Shown piece after piece: positions 1,863-7,995 of a stretch of 38,618 nt of DNA. Under the pieces are notes generated by a model. That model was not told the DNA's origin, searched no databases, and saw only the letters and a program-made list of their open reading frames with translations. Each line of letters starts with the position of its first letter. The first letter of the stretch is position 1. The position numbers and the translations under genes are program-made. The DNA is from Syntrophomonadaceae bacterium (GTDB lineage Bacteria; Bacillota; Dethiobacteria; DTU022), in NCBI GenBank assembly GCA_003554615.1, contig PWGX01000027.1:1-38618 (forward strand). Direction: 5' to 3'.

Positions 1863-3338
1863 CTACCTCTTTCCTTGTAAGGCCCTGGTCCAGAGGTGCC
1901 TCGACTCGGGCAGGATAATGACCAGGACTGTAAAAATTTCCAGGCGCCCGACCACCATCAGAATCGACAGGATCACCTGGCCGGCCGGCGGTATAACCTG
2001 GTATGTTTCCACCGGCCCTACCCCGCCAAGGCCGGGCCCGACATTGCCGATCGTTGCCGCCACCGCCGAAAAGGCCGTTTCCGTATCTAACCCCATCAGG
2101 GCCAGGAGCAGGGTCGAGCCGACCGTAAGTAAAAGGTACAAGAATCCAAATCCCATCACCGACCGCAGCACTTCTTCATTCACAAACTGCTTGCCCAGTT
2201 TAACCGAAGAGATGGCTGAAGGGTGAATAACCCGGGACAGTTCGCGGAAAGCATATTTAAACATCAGCATCCAGCGCACCTGCTTCATCGCCCCACCTGT
2301 CGAGCCGCCGCAACCGCCGATAAACATGACCAGCAGCAAAAAGAGGCGGGAAAAGTTATGCCACCCGTCAAAGTCCGCCGTGGCATAGCCGGTCGTGGTG
2401 GTAATGGATACTACCTGGAAGGCGCTCTGCCTTAAAGCAAGGAGCAAACCGCCGCCTGCATGTTCGAAATTGTTTACAGTAACCATACAAATTCCCAGCA
2501 GTATAACCAGCAGGTAAAAACGAAGCTCCGGGTTTTTTAAAACGTTGAATTCGCCGCGAATTACCCGGAAATAAATGGCAAAGTTGATCCCGGCAATAAG
2601 CATAAAAAAGATAATGATTACTTCCGCGGCAGGATTATTAAAGGCGGCGATGCTGGCATTATAAGGCGAAAATCCACCGGTAGGCATGGTGGTAAAAGCA
2701 TGGGCTAGAGAATCATAAAAGCCGATCCCGCTTAGCAGTAAGAGTAAAGTTAAAGCCGCCGTAAAAGCCACATAAATCAACCAGAGCCGGCGGGCGGTTT
2801 CAACTACCCTGGGTACAACCTTTTCTGCCACCGGGCCGGGTATTTCCGCTTTAAACATGGTCATGCTGCGAAAACCGAATTTAGGAAGAACAGCTAAAAA
2901 GAGGACAATAATCCCCATACCGCCCAGCCACTGGGTTAAACTCCGCCACAGCAGCAGGCCGCGGGGCAGTACTTCAATATCTTCAATCAGGGTGGCCCCG
3001 GTTGTTGTAAACCCGGAAACCGATTCAAAAAAAGCCTGGAGAAAACTTCCTTCAAAAACTCCATAGAAGTGAAAAGGCAAAGCACCAAAAACACCGGCCA
3101 CAAACCAGGCCAGGGTAACCACGGTAAAATTTTCAACTATACTTAATTCACTGCCGCGCGAAGGAAGAAAATAAAAGTATAAGGCACCGCCTGCAACACC
3201 AGTAAGCAGGATCGATTTCAGGAATGATAGCTGATCCGGCCCCTGTTCGGCTACCGCCCACAGAGTGGGTAGAAGCATGGACAGGGCCAGGAACAGAAGC
3301 ATTATTCCCAGCAGGTATGGAATGCGAAAATTACGCAA
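1863..3338 (-). CDS. trkH: TrkH family potassium uptake membrane protein
   Basis: A 491-residue polytopic membrane protein, the ion-conducting subunit of Trk/Ktr potassium uptake. All four pore loops with the selectivity-filter glycine can be read: SGFTTTGATL, TTMPTGGFSPY, SITTTTGYATADF and ATIGNVGPGLG. The length and two-helix-per-repeat layout match the family. The start appears to be a TTG at 3338 preceded by AAGGGGA. The regulatory partner TrkA lies 79 bp upstream on the same strand, so the two are probably one operon. Whether sodium or protons are co-transported cannot be told from sequence. Confidence 0.95.
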   Translation of the reverse strand: MRNFRIPYLLGIMLLFLALSMLLPTLWAVAEQGPDQLSFLKSILLTGVAGGALYFYFLPSRGSELSIVENFTVVTLAWFVAGVFGALPFHFYGVFEGSFLQAFFESVSGFTTTGATLIEDIEVLPRGLLLWRSLTQWLGGMGIIVLFLAVLPKFGFRSMTMFKAEIPGPVAEKVVPRVVETARRLWLIYVAFTAALTLLLLLSGIGFYDSLAHAFTTMPTGGFSPYNASIAAFNNPAAEVIIIFFMLIAGINFAIYFRVIRGEFNVLKNPELRFYLLVILLGICMVTVNNFEHAGGGLLLALRQSAFQVVSITTTTGYATADFDGWHNFSRLFLLLVMFIGGCGGSTGGAMKQVRWMLMFKYAFRELSRVIHPSAISSVKLGKQFVNEEVLRSVMGFGFLYLLLTVGSTLLLALMGLDTETAFSAVAATIGNVGPGLGGVGPVETYQVIPPAGQVILSILMVVGRLEIFTVLVIILPESRHLWTRALQGKR

Positions 3339-3417
3339 CGATGATATCCCCTTTAACCACTGCTACTTGTGGGCTTCATTTATACATCATTAATACTACA
3401 TATATAAAAGGGTAAAA

Positions 3418-4824
3418 TCAACTGTCTTCGCTGTGCACCAGTTTATTCCGAAGATACTCCTTATTTTCTTTGCCAACCGGAGGAGCAAAGTAGCGATCCA
3501 GGGCACCGCTCACTTTAGGGATAGCAAAAATAACCAGGTGATCTCCGGGCAGGAGCACCGTGTCACCGGTGGGGACTATTACTTCACCGTTGCGGGCGAT
3601 AGATCCAATAATCATGCCCCGGGGAAATCGGGCATCAACAATTTTTTTATTAACCACGCTGGCATTTTCAGGTAATACGATTTCAATCACTTCGGCTTTT
3701 TCATCCTGCAGAAGAGAAAATGCTACAGCATCCTCTTTGCGGGTTAAGCGAAGGATCTGGGAGGCAGCCAGGATTCGGGGATTGATTACACTATCTATGC
3801 CCAGAGTGCTGTAAACGGGAACATAGTGAGGCCGCATAACTTCACAGATAATTTTTGATACTCCAAACTGGCGGGCCAGGAGGGACACCACGATATTGCT
3901 GCGGTCATCACCGGTTACGGCAACCACCGCATCAGCTCGCGCTGTATCTTCTTCTTCCAGCATGGCTATCTCAGTGGCATCTCCTTCCAAAACAAGGGTC
4001 TTATCCAGATCCCGGCACAGTTCTTCACAGCGCTCCACATCTTTTTCAATAATTTTCACATCAAAGCGCTGTTTGCTTTTTTCAAGCAGATGGGCCAATT
4101 GGATTCCAATCAAACCGCCGCCCATGATCGTCACCTGCCTGATTGTTTTCTGTTCATGGTGTAAAAGAGATCCTATATCCTTCAAAGACTTGCTTTTCCC
4201 CACGAGATAAACCTTATTACCGGACATGACCACATCATCGCCCCCGGGCACTATAAATTTGCCATCGGGATCGCTGATTCCGACAATGATCATATCAAGA
4301 TTTTGGGGAAGTTTACGCAGCGGGATTCCAACAATTCCTGCTTCTGCTTCCACGGTAATGCCCACCATCATGATCCTGCCCCGGTTGAAGTATTCTATTT
4401 CGCTGGCATCGGGGAAGTGAAGCATCTTGGAAATTTCCATGGCTGCAACTTTTTCCGGGTTGATGACCACGTCGATTCCCAGCTGCTGCGGGGTTAGAAC
4501 CGACGAAGCACCGACATACTGCGGGTTCCGAATCCGGCATACTGTGATCGGGACATCGTACTGCTTGGCGATCATGCAGGCGATTACATTTACTTCATCA
4601 AACTGGGTAACCGCAACCACCATGTCGGCTTTTTTTACCCCTGCTTGTTCCAGGACAGCGGCATTGGCGCCGTTGTCTTCAATAACCATTACGTCCAGGG
4701 CTTCCTTAAAGCGCAAGGCTTTCTCTTCATTTTTTTCTATAACTACAACATCCTGATTTTTTTCAGACAGGTTCCGGGCCAGTTCATAGCTGACTCCCCC
4801 GCCTCCAACAATGATAATGTGCAT
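3418..4824 (-). CDS. trkA: Trk potassium channel regulatory subunit TrkA
   Basis: A 468-residue full-length TrkA with two RCK units, each a Rossmann nucleotide-binding domain followed by a TrkA-C domain. The first begins MHIIIVGGGGVSYELARNL and the second near residue 231 with VTIMGGGLIGIQLAHLLEK. In the first glycine-rich loop the usual last Gly is Ser (GGGGVS); the second is regular. TrkA binds nucleotide (NAD(H) or ATP/ADP in characterised relatives) on the cytoplasmic face and gates TrkH. The ATG at 4824 has AAGGGG six to seven bases before it. A hairpin followed by eight T residues stands about 35 bp upstream and may attenuate the operon. Confidence 0.95.
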   Translation of the reverse strand: MHIIIVGGGGVSYELARNLSEKNQDVVVIEKNEEKALRFKEALDVMVIEDNGANAAVLEQAGVKKADMVVAVTQFDEVNVIACMIAKQYDVPITVCRIRNPQYVGASSVLTPQQLGIDVVINPEKVAAMEISKMLHFPDASEIEYFNRGRIMMVGITVEAEAGIVGIPLRKLPQNLDMIIVGISDPDGKFIVPGGDDVVMSGNKVYLVGKSKSLKDIGSLLHHEQKTIRQVTIMGGGLIGIQLAHLLEKSKQRFDVKIIEKDVERCEELCRDLDKTLVLEGDATEIAMLEEEDTARADAVVAVTGDDRSNIVVSLLARQFGVSKIICEVMRPHYVPVYSTLGIDSVINPRILAASQILRLTRKEDAVAFSLLQDEKAEVIEIVLPENASVVNKKIVDARFPRGMIIGSIARNGEVIVPTGDTVLLPGDHLVIFAIPKVSGALDRYFAPPVGKENKEYLRNKLVHSEDS

Positions 4825-5204: not shown

Positions 5205-6197
5205 TTAAGTATCGCTATTTGCCCGGCTCAGACCTGTTTTAACAAACACAAGCGGGGCCAGGTAGGTGGCCCAGAAGGTAGACAGGGCGTGAAGGGTAAA
5301 GGTGAGTATATTGATATTTGAAGGGAGCACATATCCCAGGCCCAAAACGATCGCCGCAATGACCGGCATGCCGATCAGGGCCCGCGCCAGGTGTTCAAAG
5401 CAGCTCCCCCGGGGATCAAAGTCCAGTTTTTCCTTTTCCAGCAGGCGCCCTGCGCCTGCTCCCGCCAGGTAACCCATTAAATTGGGGGCGTAAGTAGCGG
5501 GTAAAAACGACAGGGCGATGGGAACAACCAGGGCCAGCAACAGAAGCAGCCTGGGGGAAATTTTTTCATAAATCCGGGTTTCAATCATTTCCAGGCCGAT
5601 ACCCATGAATATGGCCAGGAAAATCATCCCGGTGACGATGCCTCCGATCACATCCCCGGGAAAATGATAACCAAGGGTGATCCTGGACAGGCCCACCAAA
5701 AGGGAGATTACAACAGCCCAGATCCAGAACCAGCGGTTTTTAAGCATAATGGCCAGGTAACCCCAAACGCTGACCGCTCCGGAGGTGTGGCCGCTGGGAA
5801 AGGTATAGGTGGGAACGGTAATCCCCCGCACGTCGGGGCGGGGCAACCTGATGATATCTTTTGGAATTTCACTGGTCACAAAAATAGCCGAAGGCATCAG
5901 GATCAAGCCCCAGAAACCCAGGGACTTGTTAAAAGACCAGTAGATTACAGCTAGAAATACCAGGAAAAAGCCTTCACTGCCCAGGGTGGTTATAACCTGG
6001 AACAAATGCAAAACCACTACGTTATGCACTGTAATCGAAACCATGGAATAGGAAAAAGCGGGATCGCGAAGCGGATACCAGAACAGGTAAAGGATAATTA
6101 CAAGCAAAACCGTGAAAATAAGGCAAAGCCAGCGCCATGTTCTTTCGGTATTGTGATCTGTTGAAAATATATTGCCCGTAAGGGGGGGTAACTCCAT
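5205..6197 (-). CDS. PAP2-family membrane phosphatase
   Basis: A 330-residue integral membrane protein of the PAP2 superfamily, which hydrolyses lipid phosphates or pyrophosphates such as phosphatidate or undecaprenyl pyrophosphate. All three phosphatase motifs are present: KDIIRLPRP, PSGHTSGAV and SRITLGYHFPGDVIGG. Many hydrophobic helices follow, and the C-terminal region is longer than in minimal members. The ATG at 6197 shares one base with the stop of the upstream gene (TAATG), with GGGAG nine bases before it, so translation is probably coupled. A longer start 36 bases upstream is less likely. The exact substrate cannot be told. The nearby polyprenol-kinase-like gene suggests an isoprenoid or lipid phosphate. 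Confidence 0.87.
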   Translation of the reverse strand: MELPPLTGNIFSTDHNTERTWRWLCLIFTVLLVIILYLFWYPLRDPAFSYSMVSITVHNVVVLHLFQVITTLGSEGFFLVFLAVIYWSFNKSLGFWGLILMPSAIFVTSEIPKDIIRLPRPDVRGITVPTYTFPSGHTSGAVSVWGYLAIMLKNRWFWIWAVVISLLVGLSRITLGYHFPGDVIGGIVTGMIFLAIFMGIGLEMIETRIYEKISPRLLLLLALVVPIALSFLPATYAPNLMGYLAGAGAGRLLEKEKLDFDPRGSCFEHLARALIGMPVIAAIVLGLGYVLPSNINILTFTLHALSTFWATYLAPLVFVKTGLSRANSDT

Positions 6198-7168
6198 TAC
6201 TGTGATTCTCCCGCGCCGACCTGTTCTACCCATTCTGCCAGATCGCTGATCGTATTTATATCATGTTCAGCGGCGTGATCATTTCGCATTAAAAGGGTGT
6301 AAGTTTTATTCAAAGGCGCATAATCTAGCCAGACCAGGCCTATTTCAGCGTCTTTTTCAGCCACTTTTCGGTAAACCTGTTCCGGGTCGCTGATCCTTTC
6401 CTCTTTTTCATAAACATCTCGCCAGACCACACCGGTATACTCCCAGTAAAGATCTATGCCCTCCAACAGTAAGGCCCGCCTGATCGGGGCAGTGCCGGCA
6501 ATGGGTTCCCTTTTTTCCACAGGGATACCGGCATTTTCAAAAGCAAGAACGGTAATCTGGCCCAGGATCATTTGCTCCATAAATTCCTTGGAGCTGACTA
6601 CTACCGGCTCTCCCTCAACCGGGATCCGGGCGTCTTCAGTGATCAGATCTTGCTCTAAAAGCCACTGCCTCGCCACATCAACCGGTTCATTTTCTTCCAG
6701 GTCAACTTTGTAATTAAGTTCAATCATAGTCCGGTTGTCAAGCCGGCCCGATATTTCCGCCAGGATACCTTTTAGCTGGGGATATTGCTCCAGGACTTCT
6801 TCACGGGTTAAAGGAGCGGGGTTAGAGGCGGGAAAAACCTGGTTGTCGTCTTCAAGCCTGACCAGTTCCAGTTCTTTAATTTTGCCGTCGGTGGTAAAAC
6901 CGAGCGCCACATCCACGTCGCCAACATTCAGCGCCTCGTGGGTCAGGCCGAGAGCCATTTCATGGACTTCATCGAAGACCAGCCCGTATTCTTCTTCCAG
7001 GAGGGCCAGCCCTTCTTCTTCAACGATAAACTGTTCGTTGGCAGCCAGGCGCACTTTTTCTTCCGGTTCCACCAGCTCCTGGACAGGACAGCCGCTCAAC
7101 AAAAAAGCAAATAACAGGCCCATTAATACTATAAAACTACTCCGTGCTGTCATAGCTTTCACATTCAT
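6197..7168 (-). CDS. osmoprotectant-type substrate-binding lipoprotein, lobes in permuted order
   Basis: A 323-residue lipoprotein (signal helix then LLSGC, Cys27) of the glycine betaine/choline-binding OpuAC/OpuCC superfamily. The order is unusual. Residues about 37-175 look like the second half of the family (EEGLALLEEEYGL, DVDVALGFTTDGKIKE, LEDDNQVFP, then the YPQLKG..LNYKVD stretch). Residues 188-312 look like the first half (VVVSSKEFMEQMILGQI, GIDLYWEYTGVVW, IGLVWLDYAPLNKTY, INTISDLAEW). In ordinary members the second block comes first. A short linker rich in acidic residues joins the blocks. No ABC permease or ATPase for it lies in this window. It overlaps the PAP2 gene by one base. The family is clear; ligand and transport partner are unknown. 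Confidence 0.85.
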   Translation of the reverse strand: MNVKAMTARSSFIVLMGLLFAFLLSGCPVQELVEPEEKVRLAANEQFIVEEEGLALLEEEYGLVFDEVHEMALGLTHEALNVGDVDVALGFTTDGKIKELELVRLEDDNQVFPASNPAPLTREEVLEQYPQLKGILAEISGRLDNRTMIELNYKVDLEENEPVDVARQWLLEQDLITEDARIPVEGEPVVVSSKEFMEQMILGQITVLAFENAGIPVEKREPIAGTAPIRRALLLEGIDLYWEYTGVVWRDVYEKEERISDPEQVYRKVAEKDAEIGLVWLDYAPLNKTYTLLMRNDHAAEHDINTISDLAEWVEQVGAGESQ

Positions 7169-7242: not shown

Positions 7243-7995
7243 CTATAAATAAACCATGATCCCAAACAGGGAGAGGTAACCGGCAAAAAACATGGTCGGC
7301 GAATCCCAGGTATGGGGTGAAAAAGCCTCCACCAGGGTCAAAAGAAGGGGAACAACAGCCATAGCCACGGCGAACTGCAGGGGGGTAAAGTAATTGTAAA
7401 AAGAACCGATAACACCCAGCCCGGTCAAGAAAACCACGGCGCTTCCCTCAAGGGTGCGGACATAGGATTTACTCGTAAACAGGGCATAAGAATGGTACTT
7501 GTTCTTGCCAAAACGGATCCCGACCGGCTCGGCCAGCCCATCGCCAATCCCGTAAATCAGGATCGGGATTACCATCAGGTGCAGCAAATCGTAACGGGCA
7601 AAAAGCATACCGGCCGGCAGAAGAACCGCGTAACCGGCCGCTGTCTGGGTAACAATCCACTGCAGGGTATGAGGGCGATCTTCAGGCCGGTCAAATGAGC
7701 GAAACATGACTTTGATGAAGGGAACCCGGTCCCGGATTGGTTCAATGTAAAAAATGAATTTGGCCACGGCAAAAAAGGCCCCCAGGGCATAAAGATCAAA
7801 CGCTTCAATATGGGCATAGCCACGGTTTGAATAAATAGGGATAAAAAAAAGCAGGAAATGATTGATCTTCCGGGTATAATTGACTTTTACATTTTTATGT
7901 ATCACCAGCAGCCCGTTTAAGTACTGGCTGAGGATCAGCGCTATCACATTGGAAGATTGGTTTAGCGCAAAACCAAAATCAAGTATTTTTTCCAT
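7243..7995 (-). CDS. polyprenol/dolichol kinase-like membrane protein
   Basis: A 250-residue polytopic membrane protein resembling the CTP-dependent dolichol/phytol kinase and phosphatidate cytidylyltransferase-like group. The signature is visible: YTRKINHFLLF near residue 40, then IYGIGDGLAEPVGIRFGK followed by TSKSYVRTLEGSAVVF. These correspond to the conserved GDGxAxxxGxxxG and KSxEGS blocks of that family. It would phosphorylate a lipid alcohol at the membrane. It is 74 bp upstream of the binding lipoprotein and in the same direction, so it may head a three-gene unit ending in a PAP2 phosphatase. The substrate is not known. The family is fairly sure, the reaction less so. Confidence 0.75.
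   Translation of the reverse strand: MEKILDFGFALNQSSNVIALILSQYLNGLLVIHKNVKVNYTRKINHFLLFFIPIYSNRGYAHIEAFDLYALGAFFAVAKFIFYIEPIRDRVPFIKVMFRSFDRPEDRPHTLQWIVTQTAAGYAVLLPAGMLFARYDLLHLMVIPILIYGIGDGLAEPVGIRFGKNKYHSYALFTSKSYVRTLEGSAVVFLTGLGVIGSFYNYFTPLQFAVAMAVVPLLLTLVEAFSPHTWDSPTMFFAGYLSLFGIMVYL

Follow-up and report, generated by a model that had tools for sequence, protein, structure and literature searches.

The locus described here raises the question of how a substrate-binding lipoprotein whose two lobes are encoded in reversed order came to be coupled to a gene for a membrane phosphatase, and what such a protein might do there. We examined it within a window of 38,618 nucleotides, the whole stretch of DNA analysed, from a contig of a Syntrophomonadaceae bacterium (PWGX01000027.1), and compared it with relatives from the order, class and phylum.

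Sequence and lobe order of the binding protein

The gene lies on the minus strand at 6197..7168, with its ATG at 7168 and its stop codon at 6199-6197, and encodes a lobe-swapped, OpuCC/OsmF-type substrate-binding lipoprotein of 323 amino acids, P0001. Both halves place it in cluster F-III (PF04069) by sequence match, with the order lobe I - lobe II of that cluster reversed. The signal peptide and lipobox LSGC, which carries Cys27, occupy 7088..7168, and Gly26 and Cys27 are invariant among 17 permuted relatives. The lobe II half (residues 37-178, 6635..7060), which is second in ordinary relatives, is placed first and is followed by a new linker (residues 179-186, 6611..6634) that connects the old C-terminus to the old N-terminus; the lobe I half (residues 187-316, 6221..6610), which is first in ordinary relatives, comes last. 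All of these features are on the minus strand.

Against the PF04069 (OpuAC) profile, P0001 scores 163 bits compared with a cut-off of 21.2 (E 1.3e-47) in two stretches, the better of which places residues 31-170 on profile positions 107-255, the second half of the profile. A genome-wide search with the same profile matched the pieces of P0001 to positions 107-255 and then 2-113, in swapped order and each above the curated cut-off. The strong matches in the PDB are all swapped blocks (8dp6, E 1.6e-32; OsmF 4wep, E 6.9e-29). In the 8dp6 alignment, residues 183-311 of P0001 correspond to chain residues 3-130 and residues 45-170 to chain residues 142-267; in OpuCC, OsmF, AfProX and EgtUC-type structures alike, the N-terminal half corresponds to about residues 187-316 of P0001 and the C-terminal half to about residues 37-178. 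This swapped-block match is far beyond chance, and among the PDB matches no full-length alignment in normal order to solved OpuCC/OsmF/AfProX/EgtUC-type proteins was found. The score against the OsmF equivalog profile NF049931 (146 bits) is below its 400-bit cut-off.

An AlphaFold2 model of P0001 computed with 17 sequences is two-lobed (pLDDT 89.9, pTM 0.81). The initial annotation had read the protein from its sequence as a free lipoprotein with lobe II ahead of lobe I and a cut point right behind the lobe-I segment, and had proposed alignment and structure prediction as checks; the swapped-only matches to OpuCC/OsmF-type proteins, the predicted fold, the lipobox and the lack of adjacent ABC transporter genes agree with this reading. 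Sequence, predicted fold and relatives together show that P0001 is a genuine circular permutation at the first hinge, giving a two-lobed, membrane-tethered lipoprotein derived from an OpuC-type binding protein. The permutation kept the signal peptide in place and moved lobe I behind lobe II, with the tether now entering lobe II.

Comparison with known permuted binding proteins

Circular permutation of binding proteins is already known, in OpuAC (PMC2395249) and in TpMglB-2 (PMC4990184). When the P0001 model was compared with solved structures using Foldseek and VIA-align, B. subtilis OpuAC was the top match by a wide margin, aligned over its full length and in order (Z 17.4-18.4, 242-247 residues, 15-16% identity). 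OpuAC (2b4l, 2b4m and related entries) has the same lobe order as P0001 and is the only PDB protein with a full-length, in-order alignment of high Z (2b4m, 18.4 over 243 residues); ordinary OpuBC/OpuCC-type chains align well to the model over one half only. Structures of OpuAC have been reported to relate it to ProX-type glycine betaine-binding proteins by circular permutation (PMC2395249). P0001 therefore combines an OpuAC-like topology with an OpuCC-like sequence.

The same structural match is the argument for supposing that P0001 inherits the ancient permutation of the B. subtilis OpuAC lineage, without any new event. However, P0001 is 16% identical to OpuAC, compared with 40-60% for each of its halves against ordinary OpuCC-type proteins, and does not belong to the OpuAC family by this measure; in the tree presented below, moreover, the permuted proteins lie amid ordinary OpuCC-type ones. 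Descent from OpuAC is therefore strongly disfavoured, and we consider it very improbable. OpuAC differs further in being part of an ABC transporter and in having a Trp-based site (PMC9732360). Its rearrangement is independent of that in P0001, and older.

P0001 shares with OpuCC, OpuBC, OsmF (YehZ), AfProX and EgtUC the colinearity of each half (about 30-60% identity), the two-lobe fold and part of an aromatic cage, and it has the lipoprotein form of the Gram-positive OpuCC-type relatives. Unlike these proteins, it has reversed lobes, replacements at R149, Y214 and the cage-base residue, and no ABC transporter genes beside it. MglB-2 (Tp0684) of Treponema pallidum is a permuted glucose-binding lipoprotein, for which the authors raise a possible adaptation of topology to tethering (PMC4990184). 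It resembles P0001 as a tethered binding protein of circularly permuted topology, but it has the Type I / cluster B sugar-binding fold, and its cut moves three strands of one lobe rather than a lobe half.

Permuted relatives and their operons

Permuted relatives were present in 25 of the 98 genomes of the class and in 9 of the 398 genomes taken from the phylum. Three sorts can be told apart: A (resembling the protein of the window and located in the cassette described below), B ('ATDHEY' type) and C ('ATPAEW' type). The B and C types are mostly found in ABC operons, where OpuCA and OpuCB adjoin them wherever the neighbours are readable, and several B-type operons include MttB methyltransferase genes. 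Since many permuted relatives occupy complete, apparently intact OpuC-type ABC operons, reversal of the lobes does not in itself preclude transport, and permutation and transporter loss are separate events. The initial annotation was incomplete or mistaken on this point. At L125 (G351:C1), in a single-contig genome, two near-identical complete ABC operons with a permuted binding protein lie in tandem.

The A type is a single clade of 16 sequences, and its closest relatives are proteins with the ordinary lobe order, encoded in ABC operons of genomes G055 and G058. OpuCA/OpuCB transporter genes were not found as neighbours in the window or at the 18 cassette loci. The genome to which the window belongs has an OpuC-type operon (G000:C37) with a normal-order binding protein of its own.

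Among named records, the nearest are metagenome-assembled genomes, which might invite the explanation that the swap is an assembly error or the mark of a decaying gene. Against this, there are 36 distinct permuted sequences, two of which lie within the single-contig genome G351, the linkers are conserved and the A-type genes show the low dN/dS of purifying selection (0.08-0.25). Assembly artefact and pseudogene were rejected on this evidence, and we regard their probability as negligible.

Changes of lobe order

A maximum likelihood tree was built from 36 permuted and 34 ordinary proteins (n=70), with the halves of all proteins put in one order. It contains eight changes of lobe order, at least six of them forced by well-supported branches, and none of 200 bootstrap trees had one change. 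Forcing a single permuted clade costs 608 log-likelihood units (AU test, p 1e-66), and trees made half by half gave eight changes from either half; the AU test and the two half-trees all rule against one ancient permuted clade. Six changes, all forced, persisted after 11 mainly long rows were dropped, and a long-branch artefact was rejected on this count.

Opposite lobe orders occur within one genus, in the binding proteins of G064:C80 (L103, lobe II-I) and G066:C73 (L169, lobe I-II). The two proteins are 92% identical in the signal peptide, 84% in lobe II and 89% in lobe I, and their flanks are colinear over about 10 kb (OpuCB 96%, OpuCA 94%, CBS 80%, MttB 92% and further genes, with a range of 80-96%). 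Comparable contrasts were observed between G025 and G015/G017, and between G042 and G010/G002. Tree and synteny together show that swaps, and possibly reversals, have occurred several times, in place within orthologous operons, whatever the direction of gain or loss.

With an ordinary-order root, equally short reconstructions allow from 3 to 8 gains, the remainder being losses, and a normal-order group branches beside the permuted A clade. Both observations would suit a history of few permutations and, after them, several returns to the normal arrangement, in place of many independent permutations. We think such a history rather unlikely, given that a single permuted clade is rejected, that L022 and L091 are nested among ordinary proteins and that G064 and G066 differ at an orthologous locus. 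Because of this nesting and this orthologous difference, lobe order switches in place on either history.

Several B-type permutants now end within what is the hinge linker of ordinary proteins (INEGV-AP), and their new N-terminal lobe starts directly behind that linker. A duplication in which the outer halves were then lost, the route put forward in the initial annotation, would fit the sequences as the origin of the permutation; it is consistent with what we observed, although no leftover half-genes or tandem intermediates were found beside the permuted genes, where the sole multiple match is the duplicated G351 operon. Two further loci were seen in G003. One (L107, G003:C130) is a tandem pair of ordinary binding-protein genes, a possible start for permutation by duplication, and the other (L108, G003:C190) is a 642-aa open frame that contains a binding domain of ordinary order and is probably a fusion with another part.

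The cassette with CdsA-like and PAP2 genes

Directly downstream of the binding-protein gene, at 5205..6197 on the minus strand, a gene starting with MELPPL at 6197 encodes a membrane phosphatase of the PAP2 superfamily. It is identified by its match to PF01569 (E 2e-15) and by three catalytic motifs (KX6RP, PSGH and SRX5HX3D), which are invariant or nearly so across 14 orthologs. These motifs are common to the PAP2 phosphatases SepP, PgpB and LpxE, while every score of the gene against equivalog profiles is far below cut-off. The stop codon of the binding-protein gene and the PAP2 start overlap in TAATG (6195..6199, minus strand), which suggests translational coupling of the two genes and accords with the coupling to a phosphatase gene that had been noted at the outset.

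On the other side, at 7243..7995 of the minus strand, lies a gene for a polytopic membrane protein that we call CdsA-like from its fold, its product having no Pfam or NCBIfam match. The model (pLDDT 83.7) has its best PDB matches in CdsA (4q2e/4q2g), and these are weak (Foldseek E 0.17, Z 8.4). The product is possibly a CTP-dependent polyprenol/lipid kinase. Two homologs of this CdsA-like gene (L156, 6073-6909; L157, 2853-3701) each neighbour a UbiA prenyltransferase gene in divergent orientation, with no binding-protein gene nearby. A role of the upstream family in polyprenol or lipid phosphorylation is suggested because the weak match to the CdsA fold is joined by these UbiA neighbours.

The cassette order is CdsA-like membrane protein, swapped protein, PAP2 phosphatase, and all 17 cassettes that are readable there have the PAP2 gene on the downstream side of the permuted gene, while 17 of 18 have the CdsA-like gene on its upstream side. 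The CdsA-like family is present in 16 of 17 genomes with an A-type protein versus 4 of 81 others (Fisher 8e-14, relatedness ignored). These four genomes carry an upstream-type homolog without an A-type binding protein, and neither a PAP2 nor a binding-protein gene was seen beside the five stand-alone upstream-type homologs examined, so the cassette is not obligatory. The A-branch permuted protein is shown by these comparisons to be out of the transporter operon and fixed between the CdsA-like protein and the PAP2 phosphatase. A second A-type cassette in G001 (L058, G001:C82, 1306-2130) has its upstream and PAP2 genes and a binding-protein ORF that, as called, is shorter than its relatives (274 aa). 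Downstream of the cassette in the window (1863-4824) are genes for a TrkA-like protein (3418-4824) and, by a look at the sequence only, a TrkH-like membrane protein (1863-3338).

The ligand pocket

The residue numbers used here (R149 and others) are those that we take to apply to AfProX, and they were assigned to P0001 by spacing. The ligand-binding positions of AfProX and EgtUC were taken from published work (PMC9732360). In lobe II of P0001, E50, F91 and S115 stand at the R149, Y190 and Y214 positions, and in lobe I, K194, Y244, V247, K288 and Y290 stand at the K13, Y63, T66, cage-base and Y111 positions. R149, Y214, T66 and the cage-base Asn are replaced, whereas K13, Y63, Y111 and an aromatic residue at Y190 are kept. 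Within the A clade (n=16), R149 is retained in none, Y214 in one and the cage-base Asn in two (13 have Lys), in contrast to the 20 other permuted proteins and the three nearest canonical relatives, all of which retain the three residues.

Comparison of these positions shows that the A branch has lost the quaternary-ammonium/carboxylate residues, which speaks against the choline-like binder envisaged in the initial annotation. P0001 does not have the full aromatic cage and carboxylate-binding residue of cluster F-III and, because these residues are replaced, we do not file it as a betaine binder. Since K13, Y63, Y111 and the aromatic at Y190 are mostly retained among A-type proteins, some binding of a ligand, perhaps a different cation, is possible.

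Proposed role of the A-type protein

The conserved cassette and the lost ammonium/carboxylate residues therefore point to a role in a PAP2/lipid module, and we infer that P0001 is likely to be an extracytoplasmic partner or ligand sensor of that module and not a protein of betaine/choline uptake. On the outer face of the membrane it would partner the PAP2 enzyme, sensing a ligand other than betaine or presenting it as a substrate, while the upstream CdsA-like enzyme would work from the cytosolic side; the process served may be the recycling of a lipid carrier or lipid phosphate.

The main alternative is that P0001 is an orphan uptake protein of changed specificity serving an unlinked OpuC-type ABC transporter, such as that of G000:C37. 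It would account for the retention of the fold, the lipobox and some cage residues (Y244, Y290, F91, K194), for the presence of an OpuC-type operon with a normal binding protein in the same genome and for the B- and C-type permuted relatives that lie within transporter operons. Yet the G000:C37 operon is already supplied with its own binding protein, the A subfamily adjoins a PAP2 gene wherever the neighbours are readable and never a transporter, and three key ligand positions have been lost together; we judge orphan uptake to be rather unlikely. The account as a whole, of an OpuC-derived permutant with recurrent swaps, loss of the pocket and a role as partner of a PAP2/lipid module, we favour at slightly better than even probability. 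The fuller proposal, that permutation is a recurrent in-place switch and that one branch was recruited from ABC transport as the outer-face sensor of a lipid kinase/PAP2 pair, is put forward tentatively, as a possibility that may well prove wrong.

In the open-licence literature that we searched, permuted OpuCC-type proteins were not reported, and neither repeated in-place lobe switching between close orthologs nor a PAP2 gene coupled to a binding lipoprotein was found. Natural circular permutants usually come to light in comparisons of distantly related proteins, by which time the event is beyond reconstruction; in the present case, both lobe orders of one gene occur in orthologous operons within a single genus, at 84-89% identity. 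Because such close orthologs carry both orders, the permutation event and its effects on transport and tethering are directly testable, and G064 and G066 provide a natural pair for experiments. The branch to which the window belongs suggests a route by which a transporter subunit may be recruited into a membrane-lipid module.
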